Assembly: GCA_000270325.1 (NCBI GenBank)
Contig: BA000048.1
Coordinates: 1,232,981 to 1,296,980 of the forward strand
DNA from: Candidatus Caldarchaeum subterraneum
GTDB taxonomy: Archaea; Thermoproteota; Nitrososphaeria_A; Caldarchaeales; Caldarchaeaceae
Reading direction: 5' to 3'
DNA: 64,000 nt
The translations under genes and the position numbers were made by a program. Below the pieces are notes generated by a model. The model was not told the DNA's origin. It was given only the letters and a program-made list of their open reading frames with translations, and ran no database searches. This document shows positions 37,045-47,297 of the stretch, one piece after another; position 1 is the first letter of the stretch, and every line of letters begins with the position of its first letter.

Positions 37045-37518
37045 ATGGTGTTGACGTTGCGGGAGAAGATTGAGCTGATGAGGCAGGGGATAATACATCG
37101 ATATCTTATCCCCATGCTTGAGGAGAGAGGATTCTTAGTAAGTGATTGGAAAAGGCCAGTTTCCCTCGAGGACAAGGTTCTCCGCGACGACGGCTGGATA
37201 CCCATATACACCAGCTTCACGACCTGGGAAACATACACCAGAAACGCGCCGCTCCACGTTTATTTCAACACCTTCTACGGCGACATCCACGAAAAAGCCT
37301 ACCGGATATGCTTCGTCGAATACATACTCAACAAACACAACTACAGGCTTCCACCAGCTGTTACAGGAGTGTTTACACGATTAAACGTCGAAAACGGCTA
37401 TTACTGGAAACACCGGATACCCATAAACCTCGACGTACCAGATTCCGCTGTAAACGATGTTGACAGCAAGTATGACGAGCTGCTGCTTCTATTGACGAGG
37501 GCAAAAGTTATCGACTAA
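37045..37518 (+). CDS. Unrecognised conserved-looking protein
   Basis: A 157-residue soluble protein of no family I know, rich in Tyr and Arg. It opens with a helical segment (LREKIELMRQGIIHRYLIPMLEERG). A beta/loop middle follows (DDGWIPIYTSFTTWETYTR and HVYFNTFYGDIHEKAYRICFVEYIL), then an ending of acidic helix. There are no membrane segments, and the two cysteines do not form a pattern. It shares its stop (CTAA) with the convergent LysM-like regulator, next to the lysine cluster, but nothing ties it to that pathway. Confidence 0.5.
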   Translation: MVLTLREKIELMRQGIIHRYLIPMLEERGFLVSDWKRPVSLEDKVLRDDGWIPIYTSFTTWETYTRNAPLHVYFNTFYGDIHEKAYRICFVEYILNKHNYRLPPAVTGVFTRLNVENGYYWKHRIPINLDVPDSAVNDVDSKYDELLLLLTRAKVID

Positions 37519-37946
37519 CTTTTCCTGACTTGTCTGAGAATGATGCTTGTGTTTGTTTCGTTTACCCCTGAGATGTTTCTTATTTCTTCGATGACCTTGT
37601 TAAGTGCTGACATCGAGGGGACCGTGATTATGGCCATGACATCCCGTGTGCCAGTTATCTCGTAAACCTCTTCAACACCTTCAAGCTTGATGAGCTTGTC
37701 GGCGACCTCGGGAGTGGGCACAGAGGGATGGACGCTGATGAAAGTAACCGCCTTAACTCCATAGTCCTTGGACAGGACCACGGTAAATCCCTTGATGACG
37801 CCTTTGTCCATGAGATTCTTCACTCTTCGCCGCACAGCCCCTTCCGACAACCCGAGCGCCTTACCCACCTCAGTAAAGTTTCTCCGAGCATCCTCCCGCA
37901 GCATCTCGATAATCTTTCTATCTATTTCATCGATGTCAGCCGACAT
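37515..37946 (-). CDS. lysM: Lrp/AsnC-family regulator, probably LysM-like
   Basis: A transcription regulator of about 143 residues. The N-terminal helix-turn-helix is DEIDRKIIEMLREDARRN, then FTEVGKALGLSEGAVRRRVKNL. The C-terminal RAM ligand domain has VEEVYEITGTRDVMAIITV and the usual GVNETNTSIILRQV end. It is divergent from lysY, the position and family of LysM, the lysine-responsive regulator of Sulfolobus. ATG 37946 was preferred over an upstream TTG. A GATGTC-AGCC-GACATC inverted repeat (37932-37947) covers the start region. The specific LysM assignment is by context. Confidence 0.75.
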   Translation of the reverse strand: MSADIDEIDRKIIEMLREDARRNFTEVGKALGLSEGAVRRRVKNLMDKGVIKGFTVVLSKDYGVKAVTFISVHPSVPTPEVADKLIKLEGVEEVYEITGTRDVMAIITVPSMSALNKVIEEIRNISGVNETNTSIILRQVRKS

Positions 37947-37977
37947 CGGCTGTAAAAGCAATCGAGTGGATAATATG

Positions 37978-38010: not shown

Positions 38011-39069
38011 ATGGTTGTCCGTGTAGGTGTCGTAGGCGGCTCGGGATACACAGGCGGAGAGCTTCTGAGAATTCTCGCCGTCCATCCAAACGTTGAAGTA
38101 ACCTATGTAACATCCCGCGAATACGCTGGCAAACCCTTCACAGCCATCCACCCCCATCTCCGCGGATTCTACAAAGGGCTCAAGTTCTCCAACGTAGATG
38201 TCGAAGCAATTGTGGAGAAATGCGAAACAGTTTTCGTCAACACCCCACATGGAGTATCCTCAACACTCACCCCACAGTTTCTCGAGAGAGGTCTCCGCGT
38301 CCTCGACCTCAGCGCCGACTTCCGCCTCAGAAACCCAACGGATTACGAAAAATGGTATGAGACGAAGCATCCGAGGCCCGAGCTCTTGGACAAAGCTGTC
38401 TATGGTTTGCCCGAAATATACAGAGAAACCATCAAAAACGCTCGATTCGTCGCTTGCCCAGGCTGCAACTCAACCGCTGCGCTGATTGCTCTTGTCCCCG
38501 CCGTTGAGAATGGGATAATTGATTTGGAGAAAATTGTTGTCGACATCAAGGTGGGCAGCAGCGAGGCCGGGATAAAGCCTTCGCTTGGCACTCATCATCC
38601 TGAGAGAGCCAACGTAATGAGGCCGTATGAAGCGGAGGGGCATAGACATGTTGCAGAGGTTGAGCAGGAGCTGTCTCTGCTTGCAGGAAAACCAGTCCGG
38701 GTTGCTCTTGTTCCACACGCCGTCGGCGCTGTACGTGGAGCACTTGCAACGGCCCACGTATGGTTCTCCAACCAGGATGCAGATGAAAACATGGTTTGGA
38801 AGGTTTATGCCAGCCGCTACGCCAAGGAGCCCTTCATAAGGATAGTTCATGGAACACCATTCAGGTATCCTGACCCCAAATATGTTGTGGGGAGTAATTT
38901 CGCTGACGTGGGTTTCGCCGTGGAGAAGAGAATAGGGCGCGCGGCTCTTTTCGCTGCTATTGACAACCTGATGAAAGGGGCCGCGGGGCAGGCTGTTCAG
39001 TGTTTCAACATCATGCACGGCTTCGATGAGAGAGACGGCTTAAACTATCCGCCTCTACGGCCAGCCTAA
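38011..39069 (+). CDS. lysY: [LysW]-aminoadipate/glutamate phosphate reductase
   Basis: Reduces the LysW-bound acyl phosphate to the semialdehyde with NADPH (ArgC family), about 352 residues. The Rossmann motif GVVGGSGYTGGELLRIL is near the start, the catalytic cysteine is in FVACPGCNSTAA near 148-160, and the C-terminal GAAGQAVQC segment is intact. It is first in the run lysY-lysZ-lysW-lysX-lysJ. The start was set by the TATA box 30 bases upstream. The LysW substrate is inferred from lysW and lysX in the same cluster. Confidence 0.92.
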   Translation: MVVRVGVVGGSGYTGGELLRILAVHPNVEVTYVTSREYAGKPFTAIHPHLRGFYKGLKFSNVDVEAIVEKCETVFVNTPHGVSSTLTPQFLERGLRVLDLSADFRLRNPTDYEKWYETKHPRPELLDKAVYGLPEIYRETIKNARFVACPGCNSTAALIALVPAVENGIIDLEKIVVDIKVGSSEAGIKPSLGTHHPERANVMRPYEAEGHRHVAEVEQELSLLAGKPVRVALVPHAVGAVRGALATAHVWFSNQDADENMVWKVYASRYAKEPFIRIVHGTPFRYPDPKYVVGSNFADVGFAVEKRIGRAALFAAIDNLMKGAAGQAVQCFNIMHGFDERDGLNYPPLRPA

Positions 39070-39099: not shown

Positions 39100-39894
39100 G
39101 TGATAGTTGTCAAGGCGGGTGGCAGGGCGCTCGAGTCTAACAGACAAAAAATACTCGAGTCCGTTGCTCGCCATTCTTCTGATGGAGTGGTTTTCGTCCA
39201 CGGTGGAGGAGATGTTGTTTCGGAGTTTGAGAGGCGGCTTGGTGTTGAGCCGAAGATAGTTGTCTCCCCCTCTGGTGTTAGAAGCAGGCTCACCGACTCG
39301 GCTGAAATAGAGGTCTACACCATGGTTATGGCTGGCAAACTGGGTAAGGAGATTGCCGCCACCCTCAACAGACTGGGTGTCAAGGCTGTGAACCTCTCGG
39401 GAGTGGACGCCTCCATCATAAAGGCCCAGAGAAAGAAAAAAATCGTGATAGTTGATGAAAGAGGGCGGAAACGGGTTGTCGACGGAGGATACACGGGAAC
39501 AATAACAGACGTCGACGCTGAGCTCATTAAACATCTGCTCGGGCTCGGGCTTGTGCTTGTTGTCTCACCTCTCGCGATAGGAGACGAGGGCGAGTTACTC
39601 AACGTTGACGGTGACTCGGCAGCCGCCGCCATAGCCAGCAGCATGCGCGCAGACAGGCTGTATCTGCTAACGGATGTGGAGGGGTTGTTGCTTGACGGGC
39701 AGCTTGTCAAGAGCCTCACAGCGGCGCAGGCCCTTGAGATGTTGGACAAAATAGGGCCGGGTATGAACCGTAAAGTGATGATGGCTGCGAGAGCTGTGCA
39801 GTCTGGTGTGAAGAGGGCGCACATATGTTCGGGGCTTGTATCCGACCCGGTTGAGGCGGCTGATTCGGGCGGTGGAACTGTTATCGTCGGTTGA
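39100..39894 (+). CDS. lysZ: [LysW]-aminoadipate/glutamate kinase
   Basis: An amino-acid kinase of the ArgB family, 264 residues, that phosphorylates the side-chain carboxylate of the LysW-bound substrate. Motifs are VVKAGGRAL at the N-terminus, FVHGGGDVV near 33-41, LVVSPLAIGDEGELLNVDGDSAAAA near 150-175, and the end GPGMNRKVMMAARAV. The start is GTG. A roughly 115-base AT-rich gap follows before lysW. Confidence 0.92.
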   Translation: MIVVKAGGRALESNRQKILESVARHSSDGVVFVHGGGDVVSEFERRLGVEPKIVVSPSGVRSRLTDSAEIEVYTMVMAGKLGKEIAATLNRLGVKAVNLSGVDASIIKAQRKKKIVIVDERGRKRVVDGGYTGTITDVDAELIKHLLGLGLVLVVSPLAIGDEGELLNVDGDSAAAAIASSMRADRLYLLTDVEGLLLDGQLVKSLTAAQALEMLDKIGPGMNRKVMMAARAVQSGVKRAHICSGLVSDPVEAADSGGGTVIVG

Positions 39895-39979: not shown

Positions 39980-40014
39980 ACGGCTTTACGAATATCCCGC
40001 CCGAGGTAATGAGA

Positions 40015-40191
40015 ATGCCGGCCTTGAACTGTCCGGTTTGCGGAGGCTCCGTGGAAGTGCCTAACGACGCGTTGCCCGGCGAGTTGTTCGAGTGCGGAGA
40101 CTGCGGCGCCCAGCTCGAATACTTCATAGACGAAAAGAACAACTCCTCACTCAAAGTTGCTGAAGAGGTTGCGGAAGACTGGGGCCAGTAG
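40015..40191 (+). CDS. lysW: LysW amino-group carrier protein, ending EDWGQ
   Basis: A 58-residue acidic carrier that holds aminoadipate or glutamate by its alpha-amino group through the whole pathway, protecting it and serving as a handle for the enzymes. The N-terminal zinc ribbon has CPVCGG (about 6-11) and CGDCGA (about 31-36); an acidic linker follows. LysW proteins normally end EDWGE, the last Glu being the attachment site. Here the last codon is CAG, so the end is EDWGQ, and a free gamma-carboxylate is missing. ATG 40015 was chosen over ATG 40009 because GAGGT is 7 bases upstream. lysX follows after 3 bases. Confidence 0.93.
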   Translation: MPALNCPVCGGSVEVPNDALPGELFECGDCGAQLEYFIDEKNNSSLKVAEEVAEDWGQ

Positions 40192-40194
40192 AGG

Positions 40195-41040
40195 ATGAAC
40201 ATCGGCCTCTCCTACGACGTTGTGCGGTTTGAGGAGAAGGCTTTACTCCAGTCTATAAACAATCTCGGGCATAAACCTCTACCCATACATGTTCTGGCGA
40301 GAGAGTTTTGGATAAACGAGGTAAACGGTCTCGAAGCAGATTTCATAATACAGCGCTGCGTCAGCTACAACAGGGCAGCAGCAACCACCGCAATATTTGA
40401 GAGAAGCGGCCACATAGTCGTCAACAACACCCAAGTGCTCCGCAACTCAGCCGACAAACTTCTTACATCATGTCTGCTCGCCCGAAAAAATGTCCCCACC
40501 CCTGTAACAGCGATTGCGTTTAACAGAGAAACGGCGTTAAATGCTGCGAAAAAGATAGGGTTCCCAGTTGTGGTTAAACCTGTTTCGGGAAGCTGGGGAA
40601 GAAACATAGCGAGGGCCTTTGACGAGCAGTCGCTTCTCGACATCCTCGAACTGAGGGAGAACATGCCGAACCCGCAGATGAAGATACACTACATACAGGA
40701 GCACGTCGACAAGCCTGAGAGAGACATCAGAGCCTTCTACGTTTGGGGAGAAGTCCCAGTCGCAATCTACAGGGTGAGCAAAAACTGGAAAACCAACACA
40801 GCTCTCGGCGGAAAAGCTCAGCCATGTCCCGTGACAGATGAGCTCGCAGACCTCGTCATCAAGGCGGGAGACGCCGTCGGCGGAGGCGTCTTAGGGGTAG
40901 ATGTTCTCGAGTCACGGGAGAAAGGAATGCTGGTCAGCGAGGTCAACGGAGTCGTTGAGTTCAGAAACACCGTGCTAGTCACCGGATATGATTTGCCGAC
41001 GAAGATTGTTGAGAAGAGTGTTGAGGTGTTGAAGCGGTGA
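40195..41040 (+). CDS. lysX: LysW-aminoadipate/glutamate ligase
   Basis: An ATP-grasp ligase of 281 residues that joins the alpha-amino group of aminoadipate (or glutamate) to the LysW C-terminus. ATP-grasp segments are FPVVVKPVSGSWGRNIARAF near 122-141, IHYIQEHVDKPERDIRAFYV near 162-181, and the metal-binding VSEVNGVVEFRN near 247-258. NWKTNTALGG near 200 is the RimK/LysX substrate loop. The substrate choice between LysX and ArgX cannot be read with certainty; as only one copy is visible it may use both. Confidence 0.93.
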   Translation: MNIGLSYDVVRFEEKALLQSINNLGHKPLPIHVLAREFWINEVNGLEADFIIQRCVSYNRAAATTAIFERSGHIVVNNTQVLRNSADKLLTSCLLARKNVPTPVTAIAFNRETALNAAKKIGFPVVVKPVSGSWGRNIARAFDEQSLLDILELRENMPNPQMKIHYIQEHVDKPERDIRAFYVWGEVPVAIYRVSKNWKTNTALGGKAQPCPVTDELADLVIKAGDAVGGGVLGVDVLESREKGMLVSEVNGVVEFRNTVLVTGYDLPTKIVEKSVEVLKR

Positions 41041-42218
41041 CTGTTTCTCTGCTCAGGTTCGCGGCTCCCCGTGGACTGCGTGTTGCACGCGCTGAGGGAC
41101 AATATGTGTGGGACACCGAGGGCAGAAGATATCTAGATTTTTACATGGGATATGGTGCGGCTTTTCTCGGACACCGTCATCCACGTGTCGTGAAAGCTTT
41201 GGAGGAGCAGCTAAGCCGCTACATGACGATCACCCCCGCATTCGACACTGATGTTCTCGACGCGTGCCTCGACGCCCTTGGGAAAATTCTTCCACCTCAT
41301 TTAACCCGTGTGTTTTTTCTAAACAGCGGCTCCGAGGCTGTGGAGCTGGCTCTTAAGCTGAGCCGTAAGCTGACTGGCAGGAGGAAAGTCCTTGCTTTCA
41401 ACAACGGTTTTCACGGCAGAACCATGGCGGCTCTCTCAACGACCTGGAACCCGAAATATCGGGAGGGCTTTGAGCCTTTTCCGTTTGAAGTGGTATTCGC
41501 ACCTTTCAACGACATCGGGGCTGTTGAGGAGAAGCTGAGCGAGGAGTTTGCGGCCGTCATCTTCGAGCCTGTGCAGGGAGAGGGCGGAATAATCCCCGCT
41601 AAACCCGAGTTTATGAAAGCAGTTGAGAAACGGGCCCGGGAAATGGGTGTGTATGTGGTTGTTGACGAGGTTCAGTCAGGGTTTGGGAGAACAGGAGTGG
41701 TCTGGGCCCATGAGAGAGGCGGAATCAAGCCGGATATGTTGACGGCGGCGAAGGCGGTGGCAGGCGGCTTTCCCGCCAGCCTTATAGCGGTTACCGAGGA
41801 TGTGGCCTCGAAGGTGAAGGACACGGACCATGGCTCAACATACGGCGGCAACCCTCTCGCGCTCGCGGCAATAACGGCGGCCACGCATGTTCTCCGCGAG
41901 GAAAACATTCCCGAGCAGGCCGAGGTCAAGGGAGCCATGCTCGCCGAAGAGCTAGCACCGCTTCTGCAGGAACATGGCAGAGTTTTCAGAGGACTCAGAC
42001 AGGCTGGGCTGATGATAGGTATCGACATGCGCACCACACCCACACAATTCATCAAAATGCTTCAGGAAAATGGCTTGATAGGGTTCAAGGCAGGGCTAAC
42101 CGTTCTCCGGTTTCTCCCACCTTACCTAATCACGAGAGACGACATCCTATACGCTGTTGAGACAATAAGAAAAACAGCGGAGGAGTACATGCGTCTACAG
42201 TCGACTGAGAAAACTTGA
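41037..42218 (+). CDS. lysJ: [LysW]-aminoadipate semialdehyde/ornithine aminotransferase
   Basis: A PLP aminotransferase of the ArgD/class III type, 393 residues, that turns the LysW-bound semialdehyde into LysW-lysine (or LysW-ornithine). Motifs are NSGSEAVELALKLSRK near 97-112, GFHGRTMAALS near 127-137, VDEVQSGFGRTG near 211-222, and the PLP lysine in MLTAAKAVAGG near 239. Its GTG start overlaps the lysX stop by 4 bp. Its 3' end overlaps the convergent COG2403 gene by 24 bp. Confidence 0.93.
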   Translation: MTVSLLRFAAPRGLRVARAEGQYVWDTEGRRYLDFYMGYGAAFLGHRHPRVVKALEEQLSRYMTITPAFDTDVLDACLDALGKILPPHLTRVFFLNSGSEAVELALKLSRKLTGRRKVLAFNNGFHGRTMAALSTTWNPKYREGFEPFPFEVVFAPFNDIGAVEEKLSEEFAAVIFEPVQGEGGIIPAKPEFMKAVEKRAREMGVYVVVDEVQSGFGRTGVVWAHERGGIKPDMLTAAKAVAGGFPASLIAVTEDVASKVKDTDHGSTYGGNPLALAAITAATHVLREENIPEQAEVKGAMLAEELAPLLQEHGRVFRGLRQAGLMIGIDMRTTPTQFIKMLQENGLIGFKAGLTVLRFLPPYLITRDDILYAVETIRKTAEEYMRLQSTEKT

Positions 42219-43529
42219 CAGAGGAGTTCCGGAAACTTGCTCAGCCTCGTACCAAACTCTCACAACAGGCTTACCGCATTCAATTAAGCGGGTTAAATCA
42301 GCTGGGCTGGCTGAAACTATAAGCTCAGCCTCCGCCCTTCGCAGCGTTTCGCCGAGGTCTCTTAGCTGCTCCTCTGTGTAGCCCAGAGCGGGGACAACAG
42401 GGCCCAGATGTTGATATTCGCGGTATAGTTTAGCTATTGTGCCGACGGCATATGGCCGTGGGTCGACGATTGATGCGCCTGCGTTGACGGCTGCTATGTA
42501 GCCGGCTCCGACACTCATTCCGCCGTGGGTGACTGACGGAGAATCCTCAACAACTAACACTCTCCGTCCTCTAAGCGGAACATCTTCCACACGTATCTTC
42601 GAGGCCGTTGCCACGACCTCGGCCCCGGGGTTGACCTTTCTCACCATCTCGGCGGCCCTGTCAAGCTGCTCCTCTGAAACCTTGTCAGCCTTGTGCAGAA
42701 TTATCACATCCGCCATATGGATGTTTGTCTCGCCCGGGTAGCTGTTTGTTATCAGCTCTGGCCGCGTCGCGTCGACCACCGTTATGTGAAGGTCTGGCCA
42801 GTAGAATGGCAAGTCGTTGTTTCCACCATCCCAGACAATGACGTCGCCCTCTTTTTCCGCCTCCTTGAGAACCATCTCGTAGTCAACGCCCGCGTATACT
42901 ATGGTGCCTTCACGGAGATGTGGCTCAAACTCCTCTCTCTCCTCGATGCTGCACCTGTATCTATCGAGGTCGTCTAAGCTGGCGAAACGTTGCACGACCT
43001 GCTTCTCTAAAACACCGTAGGGCATGGGATGGCGGACGACAACGGGTCGGTGGCCCTTTTCCCTAAGAAGCTTAACCAGCATCCGTGAGACGGTGCTTTT
43101 CCCCGCCCCGGTCTTCACAGCCGTAACCGCTACCACCTTTTTCCCTGACTTGAGCATGGTTGAGCGGGGGCCCAGAAGCATGAAGTCACAGCCCAGCGCA
43201 AGAACCTTGGAGGCCTTGTTCATCAACTCTACATGTGTCAGGTCGCTGTATGAGAAGACGACAAGCCTGACCCCTTCTCTCTCAACTATTTCGGGCAGCT
43301 TCTCCTCATCATGTATGGGAATGCCCATGGGGTAGAGTGGGCCGGCGAGCTTGGGAGGATAAACACGTCCAGCGATGCCAGGTATCTGCGCGGCCGTAAA
43401 CGCCACAACCTCATACCGCTCGTTGTTTCTGAAGAAAACGTTGAAGTTATGGAAATCGTGGGGCCTCTAGAAAAAGGCCCTGTCACGTCCAGCGGCTCCC
43501 ATGATTACAGTCTTTACGCGGCCATCCAT
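42195..43529 (-). CDS. COG2403-type GTPase / cyclic 2,3-diphosphoglycerate synthetase relative, interrupted by an in-frame TAG hairpin insert
   Basis: A P-loop protein related to archaeal cDPG synthetase. From GTG 43406 (residues VAFTAAQIPGIAG) to 42195 it is open and has the P-loop VKTGAGKST near 96, WDGGNNDLPFYWPD near 190-203, HKADK and THGGMSVGAG. The family N-terminus (GAAGRDFHNFN) is upstream: from ATG 43529 the frame reads VIMGAAGRD, then RAFF-stop-RPH, then DFHNFNVFFRNNERYEVV into the rest. The extra 27 bases carry TAG (43467-43469) and form a hairpin. The gene is a pseudogene, is decoded by bypass or readthrough, or is processed in RNA. It lies antisense between lysJ and lysK. Confidence 0.75.
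43457..43487 (-). other. Hairpin insert with in-frame TAG and flanking Asp codons
   Basis: Read on the minus strand, an outer helix CGTG/CACG, a 3-base bulge ACA, and an inner helix GGGCCT/AGGCCC close the loop TTTTCTAG, which contains the first two bases of nothing else but the in-frame TAG. The last normal codon before it is GAC (43484-43482) and the first after it is GAT (43457-43455), both Asp. Skipping from one to the other removes exactly 27 bases and restores the conserved GRDFHNFN. Confidence 0.8.
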
Positions 43530-43601: not shown

Positions 43602-44687
43602 TTGATAACAGGATTGAGCACGGTGGAAATCCATAGAGAGACGGCGGTCTCAACGCTTGTTCAGCTCCTCGAGGTTTACACGCCGCCGGGAGAGGAGCGG
43701 AGGCTTGAGCGAACATGGTTTAGAATCTGCGGCGACCTCGGTTACAGAGATTTTTGGCGGGACGAGGTTGGCAACTATTTCGCAGCCGCTGGAGGCGGAG
43801 AAAGAACAGTTATGCTGGTGAGCCACGTTGACACCGTTCCAGGGGAGCTTCGTGTCCGTGTTTCCGAGGGCAAGGTCTACGGCAGAGGCGCGGTTGACGC
43901 CAAGGGACCTCTATCAGCCATGCTTCTCGCAGGCAGCGCAGCCGCATCCCATCTGAAAAACATACGACTCATCGTTGCTGGTCTCGTCGACGAGGAAGGG
44001 AATGGATACGGGGCTAAGAAGCTTGTCGAAGAAGGTCTCGAAGCAGATGCGATAATAATAGGAGAGCCAACCGGGACAACCGGAATAGCCCTCTCATACA
44101 GAGGAAGTCTGAGCATCAAGATAAGGGCCCAAGCACGTGGAGGCCATGCATCAGCACCCTACATCGCGGAATCGGCTCTGGAGAAAATTCTCCGTTTATG
44201 GAAACTTGTCGAAGAGCACTACGGCGGCAAGAGGTATGAGGAGGTGACTTCCGCTTTAACAACGCTTCATGCAGGAGACTGGGTGAGCAGGATACCTGAC
44301 AGAGCCGAGGGAAGCATAAACATCAGGTTCCCCCATCCATACAGCTCTAAGGAGATATTGTCCCGGCTTGAGGAGTTCGCTAAAATTGCTGACTGCCAGA
44401 TGGAGGTCATCGACATAACCGAGCCGGTCGTCACCCACGTGAACAACTATGCTGCCAGAGGTCTTCAGAGAGCGATGCTAAGGCTGGGGCTGAAGCCACG
44501 CATAGTGAAAAAGACAGGTACAAGCGACATGAACACCCTAGTAGCCGTGACGCCGAACATAGTGGCATGCGGACCCGGCGACTCAACCCTCGCCCACACA
44601 TCAGCAGAAGCAGTAGAGATAAAAGACATAATCACCGCAGCCCAAATCTACGTCGAATTCGTTAAGGAAATGGATTCAGCTCAGTAA
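43602..44687 (+). CDS. lysK: [LysW]-lysine/ornithine hydrolase
   Basis: An M20 metallopeptidase of the ArgE/DapE type, 361 residues, that releases lysine or ornithine from LysW. Metal ligands are visible in LVSHVDTVPG near 68-77, YGRGAVDAKGP near 89-99 and VDEEGNGYGAK near 128-138. GEPTG is near 153 and the final histidine is in LAHTSAEAVEI. The start is TTG, about 27 bases after CTTAATAC (43572-43579), so it has its own promoter, separated from lysJ by the antisense COG2403 gene. Its 3' end overlaps argH by 12 bp. Confidence 0.9.
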   Translation: MITGLSTVEIHRETAVSTLVQLLEVYTPPGEERRLERTWFRICGDLGYRDFWRDEVGNYFAAAGGGERTVMLVSHVDTVPGELRVRVSEGKVYGRGAVDAKGPLSAMLLAGSAAASHLKNIRLIVAGLVDEEGNGYGAKKLVEEGLEADAIIIGEPTGTTGIALSYRGSLSIKIRAQARGGHASAPYIAESALEKILRLWKLVEEHYGGKRYEEVTSALTTLHAGDWVSRIPDRAEGSINIRFPHPYSSKEILSRLEEFAKIADCQMEVIDITEPVVTHVNNYAARGLQRAMLRLGLKPRIVKKTGTSDMNTLVAVTPNIVACGPGDSTLAHTSAEAVEIKDIITAAQIYVEFVKEMDSAQ

Positions 44688-46109
44688 TCTCTGTAAACAG
44701 TCTTCGAGAAAACGCCGCTCCATTTCAACACGGTTTCTCTCTTCCTCAACTATTTTGAGAAGCCGGTCCACGTTCTCAGAGACCATGGAGGGGTTGGCCG
44801 AGCCCTTGGCCGTGTAGCGTTCAACTGTGGCAACCGGGTCCATAATGTTAAGCACTTCCCCGACTGTGTAGATTGGTTTTAGCCCGTGCTCTTGGAAGAT
44901 TGTATCAAGCCTCGTCTGTGTAAGGGTTTTTTCGGCGATGCTGCGGCTGATTTTCGCCGCTATCTGATGTGCTTTTCTGAAGCCTATTCTATGTTTGAGA
45001 GTTAGGTGGTTGGCTAGCTCGACTGCGGCCGTGGGCGGTGCGCATGCCTCCATCGCCCTCTCCTTATTGACCTCAATCATCTCCACATGTTTTTTCAGCA
45101 TGTGGAGGCTTTCAGAAACCTCTCTGAGAGCTTGCCAAAACTTCGGCGTCACCTGTTGAAGGTCAAGGTTGTAGCCACTCGGCTGCCGCGACAAAATCCC
45201 AGACACCGTGGCGAGAAGCCCCAGCACCTCCGCCGTCTTTGTCCTCATAATCTCGGCGACGACGGGGTTCCTCTTCTGAGGCATGATGCTGCTGGTCGCG
45301 GCGAGCTCCTCAGGTATCTGTATGAGGCCGAATTCCTCCGACGAGTAGAGAACCATCTCCTCGGCAAAAGAGGAAATAACCAAGGCGATGGCGTGGAGAG
45401 GTGAGAGAAGCAAAAGAAGAAACTCCCGGGAAGCCGTTGCATCGAGGGCGTTCCAGCTGATTCTCTTAAAGCCGAGTAGCTGGGCTATGTATTCGCGGTC
45501 CACGGGCGCGGATGTTCCCGCGACAGCCGCCGAGCCTAGAGGAGACTCTTCACAAGCCTCAAGATTGTTGAGGAGAGTGTTGCAGCATCTTAGAAGGCGG
45601 ATGGCGTAGGACTGTAGAAGAAACCCGAACGTCGCTGGAGCGGCTCTCTGTAGATGGGTGTAGACGGGGAAAACCGTTGCAGCATGTTCACGGCTTTTCA
45701 TCACAAGTGCTTCTACGGCTCCGAGAAGCTCTTCAGCGACTTTATACACTCTACGCCTCGCCTCGATTTTCACAGCCGCAACAACCGCATCGTTTCTGCT
45801 TTTGCCGAGTGCAAGCATCTCAGCGGCCTCGGGTGCTTTTTGGGCGAGAAGTTGTTCCAGATAGATGTGGATGTCTTCTGTTGTAGGGGGCGGGGTTTGC
45901 CGGGTTTGGAGAAGTTGTTTCAGTGCCGAGACAGCTTTCTCCGCCGATGTCTTGCTTATGAGGCCCTGCTTCTCTAGCATCTTTATGTGGGCCGCGTTAA
46001 CGCAAACCGTTGCCTCATAAATTTCTGCGTCAAAGGACGCGGATGATGTGTAGCGCGCCGCCTCCTCATCCATCCCACGCGATAAAGCTGCTCTATGTGG
46101 TGCATCCAT
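44676..46109 (-). CDS. argH: Argininosuccinate lyase
   Basis: The last step of arginine synthesis, 477 residues, fumarase/aspartase superfamily. The signature loop TSSIMPQKRNP is near 268-278, SRNDAVVAA near 104, and YTHLQRAAP near 150. The C-terminal MDPVATVERYTAKGSANP is as in ArgH. It starts 3 bases after the argG stop, so argG-argH is one operon, convergent to lysK. Confidence 0.95.
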   Translation of the reverse strand: MDAPHRAALSRGMDEEAARYTSSASFDAEIYEATVCVNAAHIKMLEKQGLISKTSAEKAVSALKQLLQTRQTPPPTTEDIHIYLEQLLAQKAPEAAEMLALGKSRNDAVVAAVKIEARRRVYKVAEELLGAVEALVMKSREHAATVFPVYTHLQRAAPATFGFLLQSYAIRLLRCCNTLLNNLEACEESPLGSAAVAGTSAPVDREYIAQLLGFKRISWNALDATASREFLLLLLSPLHAIALVISSFAEEMVLYSSEEFGLIQIPEELAATSSIMPQKRNPVVAEIMRTKTAEVLGLLATVSGILSRQPSGYNLDLQQVTPKFWQALREVSESLHMLKKHVEMIEVNKERAMEACAPPTAAVELANHLTLKHRIGFRKAHQIAAKISRSIAEKTLTQTRLDTIFQEHGLKPIYTVGEVLNIMDPVATVERYTAKGSANPSMVSENVDRLLKIVEEERNRVEMERRFLEDCLQRLLS

Positions 46110-46112
46110 CAG

Positions 46113-47297
46113 CTACTCCTTCTCCCTAAGGCTGCTCAGACGTGTCTCGAGGCTCCACAGCTTGGAAAAGCCTTCCCCAGCCCTCTGGTCAAAAACACTT
46201 TCACGCGCATAGGTGATATACTTGGGAGAGTAGAGGGGTTTTTCTCCACGCCGTCCAACTATCCTCAGCGAGCCTTTGTAAAGCCTGAGACGAACCTCAC
46301 CATCCAGCCCTTTCTGCGACTCGTCGATAAACGCGTCAAGGGCTTTGCGCAACGGGTCCATCCACAATCCAGAGTAGACGAGGTCCGCCCAAAGGCTGTC
46401 CACCTGCTGCTTGAATGCCTGAAAACGTCTTCCGAGAAACATTTTCTCAAGGTCCATGTGCGCGTTGATTAATATGAGTGCCGCGGGAACCTCGTAAACC
46501 TCCCGTGACTTAAGGCCCACGACACGGTCCTCCACATGATCAACCAGTCCGTAGCCATGCATACCGCCCAACACATTCAGCATCCTAACAAGTGACACAA
46601 GGTCTTTTCTCTCGCCGTTGATGTATTCTGGGACACCGTTTCTAAACCCTATGGTGAACTCCTCAGGCTTGTCGGGTGTTTGGTCAAGGGGTTTGACAAG
46701 CTTAAACGCCTCGGTGGGAGGCTCTGTCCAAGGGTCCTCGAGCTCTGCGGCCTCTATCGAGCGGCCCCAGAGGTTCTCGTCGATGCTGAAGCGGCTTTTG
46801 ACAGGGTTGACGGGTAGGTTGTGCTCCAGCGCATACTCTATCTCCTCGTCTCGACTCATGTTCCACTCTCTAACGGGCGCGATTATCTTGAGGCCCGGTG
46901 CAACGGCTGCGAAAGTCGCGTCAAACCGCAGCTGGTCATTACCTTTACCCGTGCATCCATGAGCAACCGCGTCACACCCCTCCTTCAAAGCAACCTTCGC
47001 GGTCTCCTCAGCTATCAAAGGCCTGCTCAAAGCCGAGCTGAGAGGATAACTCCTCTCATACATCGCGTTCGCCTTGATCGCTCTCGACAAAAACTCGTCG
47101 GCAAATTTTTTCTTCGCATCTATGCTGTAGTGCTTGACGGCGCCGCTTTTGTATGCCTTCTCCTCGATTTCTGCAAAATCTTCATCTTGGCCAACGTCAA
47201 CTGTAACCGTCACCACCTCGGCATTGTATCTCTGGCTTATCCATTTGATCATCACGGTTGTGTCGAGACCGCCGCTGTAAGCTAACGCCACCTTCAT
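46113..47297 (-). CDS. argG: Argininosuccinate synthase
   Basis: Joins citrulline and aspartate with ATP, 394 residues. The PP-loop ALAYSGGLDTTVMIKW is at the N-terminus, HGCTGKGNDQLRFD near 113-126, and SRFSIDENLWGRSIEA near 165. It is first in the argGH operon. With lysYZWXJK nearby, the LysW route probably also supplies ornithine, but the carbamoyltransferase is not in the window. Confidence 0.96.
   Translation of the reverse strand: MKVALAYSGGLDTTVMIKWISQRYNAEVVTVTVDVGQDEDFAEIEEKAYKSGAVKHYSIDAKKKFADEFLSRAIKANAMYERSYPLSSALSRPLIAEETAKVALKEGCDAVAHGCTGKGNDQLRFDATFAAVAPGLKIIAPVREWNMSRDEEIEYALEHNLPVNPVKSRFSIDENLWGRSIEAAELEDPWTEPPTEAFKLVKPLDQTPDKPEEFTIGFRNGVPEYINGERKDLVSLVRMLNVLGGMHGYGLVDHVEDRVVGLKSREVYEVPAALILINAHMDLEKMFLGRRFQAFKQQVDSLWADLVYSGLWMDPLRKALDAFIDESQKGLDGEVRLRLYKGSLRIVGRRGEKPLYSPKYITYARESVFDQRAGEGFSKLWSLETRLSSLREKE

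Follow-up and report, generated by a model that had tools for sequence, protein, structure and literature searches.

A LysW carrier protein encoded with a C-terminal glutamine in Candidatus Caldarchaeum subterraneum and ammonia-oxidising archaea

The hot-spring archaeon Candidatus Caldarchaeum subterraneum encodes a LysW amino-group carrier protein whose last residue is Gln, and a Gln-ending LysW is common to nearly all ammonia-oxidising archaea examined. Gln has no gamma-carboxylate. The protein is most likely a working LysW carrier, synthesised as a precursor that ends in Gln; this Gln is quite probably deamidated to Glu. The bond that LysX makes links aminoadipate or glutamate to the gamma-carboxylate of the terminal Glu in LysW (PMC10433800, PMC9303977), and E54A replacement has shown that the C-terminal Glu54 of Natrinema ArgW is crucial for arginine synthesis (PMC10433800). 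The ending EDWGQ was not found in any paper in a literature search of partial coverage. The observation is real and conserved, and Gln-ending LysW is apparently undescribed in the literature searched.

The lysW gene and its surroundings

The window is the whole stretch of DNA analysed, 64,000 nucleotides in length. The lysW gene (40015-40191, + strand) translates to MPALNCPVCGGSVEVPNDALPGELFECGDCGAQLEYFIDEKNNSSLKVAEEVAEDWGQ followed by the stop codon TAG (40189-40191), giving a protein of 58 amino acids. Translation bears out the initial annotation, in which LysW was read as ending in EDWGQ with CAG as its last codon (40186-40188). There is an in-frame ATG at 40009; its use would add two N-terminal residues and leave the C-terminus unaffected. 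The protein passes the cut-offs of the archaeal LysW model NF041070 (79.3 bits, cut-off 75) and of the zinc-ribbon Pfam PF21344 (52.3 bits, cut-off 27); it does not reach that of the equivalog TIGR01206 (34.3 bits, cut-off 53.2). All four zinc-ribbon cysteines (CPVC...CGDC) and the EDWG motif are intact. It aligns over nearly its full length, and through the last residue, with the solved chains 3vpb_E, 3wwl_A and 5k2m_E, all three of which terminate in Glu. The encoded last residue is Gln (CAG) and not the Glu of EDWGE, and the protein is thus a variant of LysW rather than a standard member. The genome is a single contig of 1,680,938 bases; it contains one LysW over the family cut-off, which ends in Gln. 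The features of the region are as follows.

37515-37961, - strand: lysM, Lrp-type regulator adjoining the cluster (NF040947, 161.6 bits, best in the library, below the cut-off of 180)
38017-39069, + strand: lysY/argC, [LysW]-aminoadipyl/glutamyl phosphate reductase (TIGR01850, 428 bits; start estimated from the profile match)
39100-39894, + strand: lysZ, [LysW]-aminoadipate/glutamate kinase (NF010662, 321 bits)
40015-40191, + strand: lysW, amino-group carrier protein with zinc ribbon and EDWGQ C-terminus (NF041070, PF21344, alignment to 3vpb_E)
40186-40188, + strand: CAG codon for the C-terminal Gln, which replaces the conjugated Glu (translation; Gln kept in relatives)
40195-41040, + strand: lysX, ATP-grasp ligase with AAA-type signature EFRNT and intact GSWGR (TIGR02144, 324 bits; 3vpd, 207 bits)
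41037-42218, + strand: lysJ, [LysW]-aminoadipate/glutamate semialdehyde transaminase (best match NF045491, 491 bits, below its strict cut-off)
43602-44687, + strand: lysK, M20 hydrolase releasing lysine or ornithine from LysW, proposed LysW-Gln amidase (TIGR01902, 241 bits, over the cut-off; 5xoy, 139 bits; conserved residues)
44676-46109, - strand: argH, argininosuccinate lyase (TIGR00838, 361 bits)
46113-47297, - strand: argG, argininosuccinate synthase (NF001770, 528 bits)

The cluster is intact in the order lysY-lysZ-lysW-lysX-lysJ ... lysK; argH and argG are encoded on the opposite strand, and lysX begins 3 bases past the lysW stop. In line with the earlier remark that the rest of the protein and the cluster is intact, the four cysteines, EDWG and the lys genes are present. 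LysK is related to the [LysW]-lysine hydrolase 5xoy, keeps the conserved residues, and does not reach the strict cut-offs of NF003367 and NF001747; its start codon is uncertain (TTG listed). Between lysJ and lysK lies a gene for a P-loop GTPase-like protein of 403 amino acids (42195-43406, - strand), with a weak CobW/HypB/UreG match (PF02492, 31 bits). Homologues of this gene occupy the equivalent position in L032 and L034, two relatives whose LysW ends in Gln.

The ligases of this family are distinguished by an Asn-Thr or a Gly-Phe signature (PMC10433800), the position of which in the present proteins was read from alignments made here. A second LysX paralogue (L197, G000:81330-82145) has the Glu-type signature EFKGL, and its closest solved protein is Sulfolobus ArgX (258 bits). 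It is located far from the lys cluster and has no LysW of its own. The Caldarchaeum genome thus contains one Gln-ending LysW, an AAA-type LysX and a ligase resembling StArgX.

Distribution of the Gln ending

Stop-anchored EDWGQ and EDWGE patterns were searched in 398 Thermoproteota genomes, one per species. EDWGQ was matched in 86 genomes and EDWGE in 246; the reversed pattern that served as control produced about 3 chance hits across the 398. One EDWGQ match (G072) is a chance frame of 16 residues and not LysW, which leaves 85 genomes, that of Caldarchaeum included. An extra EDWGQ match in G226 is also not LysW. The Gln ending is widespread in the survey; the initial annotation had treated it as local to the Caldarchaeum genome. 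The 85 genomes fall into groups f7 (61 of 62), f41 (4/4), f45 (6/6), f4 (8), f1 (4), f32 (1) and f35 (1). Archaeal AmoA is carried by all 12 genomes tested from f7, f41 and f45, and these three groups are accordingly regarded as ammonia oxidisers; AmoA was not found in the Caldarchaeum genome by the same test. Nearly all genomes with an EDWGQ LysW in f7, a single family of ammonia oxidisers, retain a second LysW, which ends in Glu.

A comparison of LysW termini among related archaeal genomes had been suggested at the outset, and it finds Gln in the relatives as well (L032-L034, for example). The closest of them, L032, has a LysW that is 91% identical, and Gln-ending LysW is found in separate assemblies of same-genus or same-family genomes (L032-L036 and L038). 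Among the loci read, some of which overlap, the Gln codon is CAG in 62 and CAA in 6. A sequencing or assembly error in which GAG was read as CAG, another early proposal, would require a change of one base; independent assemblies from the same genus and family carry Gln together with synonymous and flanking differences, and the ending is conserved across species. The proposal is refuted for the lineage, and the chance that it is right is negligible. Gln-ending relatives and the synonymous CAG and CAA codons rule out both error and decay.

A family search that was not selected by ending gave 105 distinct LysW-like proteins. Glu is the last residue in 82 (76 EDWGE and 6 EDYGE) and Gln in 20, and three are outliers; as in Pup, the C-terminus is otherwise either Glu or Gln. 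Lys, Gly, Ala, Val and Asp, whose codons are single-base neighbours of GAG and GAA, are absent from the last position of the EDWG-type LysW proteins in this set. Such a strict limit fits a residue that has to become Glu. The outliers, L098 (G101), L097 (G098) and L099 (G072), are LysW-like zinc-ribbon proteins without a terminal Glu or Gln; one ends in EDFGELTK and two have Glu-rich tails, and all exceed the cut-off of PF21344. Beyond the archaea, six bacterial records came from a search of plasmids for LysW.

Arrangement of loci in ammonia oxidisers and Gln-only genomes

A typical f7 genome (L146) has two loci. One is arranged argG-lysW(E)-argX-lysY-lysZ-lysJ-lysM and the other consists of a homocitrate-synthase-like gene followed by lysW(Q)-lysX-lysK; the homocitrate synthase label comes from reading the sequence and not from a profile search. 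The pathway is split in this way in L146 and in similar loci (L148-L150, L151-L155 and L157). In one half a ligase, in some cases with a LysW, stands beside argG, lysY, lysZ, lysJ and lysM; in the other half of the L146-type loci the Gln-ending LysW adjoins the homocitrate-synthase-like gene, LysX and LysK.

Three complete genomes of f45 (G226, G325 and G353) each carry a single LysW and no other, and it ends in Gln. Both ligase paralogues, AAA-type and Glu-type, are present in them, and argG is directly followed by a ligase; the Caldarchaeum genome has the same make-up of carrier and ligases. With a single Gln-ending LysW beside two ligase types, the carrier in such genomes must serve both the lysine and the arginine branch, if both products are made this way. 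The ligase next to a Gln-ending LysW is AAA-type in 52 of 56 rows and Glu-type in 4, the rows not being independent. A lysine-only role for Gln-ending carriers as a rule is excluded by these four cases and by the single-carrier genomes.

Evolution of the Glu and Gln endings

A quick tree of 117 LysX/ArgX proteins, which has some long branches and from which no direction of change was inferred, was labelled with the last residue of the neighbouring LysW. It requires eight changes between Glu and Gln, at least seven of them forced by well-supported branches. The two endings group strongly on the tree (none of 500 shuffles gave so low a number), and near-copies contribute to this grouping. In genus g9, two species have the Gln ending and three have Glu; the lysW-lysX-lysK operon is the same in all five, with no added gene, and LysX is 82-87% identical in four of them. 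In genome G266, from an ammonia oxidiser of f7, the LysW copy linked to lysK (L184) ends in Glu where that of its relatives ends in Gln, an apparent natural change from Gln to Glu.

Ligases and the search for an amidase

LysX proteins beside Gln-ending carriers keep GSWGR, RDIR and the conserved ATP-grasp positions, with one exception. This is L116 (G138), an ArgX-type ligase beside a Gln-ending LysW, which has GSHGR in place of GSWGR, the motif to which recognition of the LysW tail is ascribed. No LysX residue tracks the Gln ending: in 973 tests the best reached about 3.5 of 7 independent pairs, a number of pairs that gives little power. A compensating change in LysX was rejected, as the mutual-information ranking followed phylogeny and the independent-pairs test was within chance. 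The ligase appears unadapted to Gln, which suggests that LysX sees Glu in both cases.

Homologues of Dop and PafA were found in none of 17 genomes, with a positive search control, and Dop/PafA was rejected as the LysW amidase. The Gln-ending LysW may at most work like Pup and, with these enzymes absent, is not a Pup system. The initial annotation had looked to a conserved amidase co-occurring with Gln-ending LysW. No such gene emerged from the clusters; in the neighbourhoods read, none was seen that is common to Gln clusters and missing from Glu clusters.

LysK, the likeliest amidase, was absent from the options first considered. Every one of the 22 genomes searched has it; most of these have a Gln-ending LysW, and some are of Glu type for comparison. 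No other M20 hydrolase was detected in the set's 11 ammonia oxidisers (AmoA was found in 10 of these 11). The lysK gene follows lysW(Q)-lysX in g9 and in the ammonia-oxidiser loci read, and the conserved LysK residues are kept. Nothing in the LysK alignment sets Gln lineages apart.

Proposed activation of the carrier

The explanation that is somewhat favoured as a whole is that LysW is a Gln-ending precursor which is deamidated and then charged by LysX/ArgX, with LysK as the preferred amidase. The terminal Gln would be converted to Glu after translation and before LysX acts. LysX or ArgX would then use ATP to activate the gamma-carboxylate and couple it to aminoadipate or glutamate, and LysZ, LysY and LysJ would act on the tethered intermediate. 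LysK would free lysine or ornithine, leaving a Glu-ending LysW. Since this would be recycled, one deamidation per LysW molecule would be enough.

Conversion of Gln to Glu as in Pup had been one of the early suggestions. It stands as the best-supported reading, given the restriction to Glu and Gln, their interchange beside an unchanged LysX, and the genomes with Gln alone. The case for LysK is more tentative, and the chance that it catalyses the reaction is put at a little short of even. LysK hydrolyses the isopeptide bond between the side chain of the last Glu of LysW and lysine. The encoded Gln can be regarded as LysW-gamma-Glu-NH2, the smallest version of the LysK substrate LysW-gamma-Glu-NH-Lys. 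LysW-Gln would thus resemble the enzyme's own substrate, with NH2 in the place of lysine, and by this analogy LysK is the most economical candidate. If ordinary LysK has amidase activity, lineages could switch freely between Glu and Gln without a new gene. Against this, LysK is also needed for product release in Glu-type species, and its presence is not specific to the Gln ending. In characterised M20 enzymes, moreover, the leaving amino acid is usually held by its carboxylate, and ammonia has none.

Alternative explanations

A separate, unlinked amidase, of nitrilase-, amidase-signature- or CheD-like type, might deamidate LysW-Gln instead of LysK. LysW-Gln needs an amidase and the clusters of independent Gln lineages contain none that is dedicated, so the gene could be anywhere; the usual preference of M20 hydrolases for an amino-acid leaving group also speaks for it. 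This is nevertheless thought unlikely: the frequent switches among close relatives would require the enzyme to have been present ahead of each one, and Dop/PafA is absent. We know of no candidate gene. Direct use of Gln by LysX/ArgX, either by exchange of the gamma-amide for aminoadipate (amide exchange being an early suggestion) or through an ordinary peptide bond at the alpha-carboxylate, would need no extra enzyme, and the alpha-carboxylate of a C-terminal Gln is indeed free. The unchanged GSWGR and ATP-grasp motifs of LysX beside Gln-ending carriers, and the lack of any tracking residue, disfavour it. Use of the alpha-carboxylate should in addition tolerate residues beyond Glu and Gln, and none is seen in EDWG-type LysW; the E54A variant of Natrinema ArgW is defective although its alpha-carboxylate remains (PMC10433800). 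Direct use is therefore improbable.

The Glu-ending LysW kept in most ammonia oxidisers could mean that the Gln-ending copy is not a biosynthetic carrier and is regulatory or decaying. This is very improbable, considering the genomes that combine a Gln-ending LysW alone with a full pathway, the position of the Gln copy between the homocitrate-synthase-like gene and lysX-lysK in ammonia oxidisers, and its retention in nearly every f7 genome. Archaea generally make Gln-tRNA indirectly, by amidating Glu-tRNA(Gln), and escape of the latter at CAG could supply a catalytic pool of Glu-ending LysW, of which little would be needed as the carrier recycles. A minor by-product would hardly account for a residue that about 60 species have kept, and a codon for Glu itself, reached by a single base change, should be preferred; mistranslation is accordingly given a very slight chance indeed.

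Comparison with known systems and significance

The LysW/AmCP proteins of Thermus thermophilus, Sulfolobus and Thermococcus kodakarensis share with the Caldarchaeum protein the zinc ribbon, the acidic EDWG-x tail and the LysX-LysZ-LysY-LysJ-LysK pathway. They differ in the last residue, which is Glu and is conjugated through its gamma-carboxylate, whereas Caldarchaeum encodes Gln. ArgW of haloarchaea (Natrinema gari) is likewise an arginine carrier with an EDWG tail recognised by the GSWGR motif of LysX/ArgX, but it ends in Glu, which mass spectrometry has shown to be the linkage site (PMC10433800). Vzb22-type AmCPs of bacterial natural-product clusters also tether amino acids to the gamma-carboxylate of a C-terminal Glu (PMC9303977); they are described with Glu and lead to different products.

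Pup of Actinobacteria, with Dop and PafA, is similar in being a small carrier or modifier encoded with a C-terminal Gln or Glu and in forming isopeptide bonds through a gamma-carboxylate. Deamidation of PupQ and cleavage of Pup isopeptide bonds are both the work of a single hydrolase, Dop (PMC8599861), and a dual role of this kind is proposed here for LysK. The two systems are not homologous: LysX is an ATP-grasp ligase and LysK an M20 metallohydrolase, and LysW carries metabolites and not a degradation signal.

Annotation of LysW by the EDWGE motif would miss Gln-ending proteins. If the proposed mechanism is true, it would be a second and unrelated activation cycle of the Pup/Dop kind, starting from an encoded Gln and operating in amino-acid biosynthesis; the Pup device of encoding Gln in a position that calls for Glu would have arisen repeatedly in an unrelated carrier system. 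Ammonia-oxidising archaea rank with the most abundant microbes of the sea and of soils. A metabolic model of Nitrosopumilus maritimus cites one LysW beside argX, in passages that make no remark on its ending (PMC6038301). If deamidation takes place, lysine and arginine synthesis in ammonia oxidisers would need an extra activation step that is missing from those passages of the pathway reconstruction (PMC6038301). It is tentatively proposed that the primary metabolism of Caldarchaeum and of ammonia oxidisers may depend on a Gln-encoded pro-carrier activated by deamidation, for which LysK would be the amidase and also the isopeptidase that releases the product.
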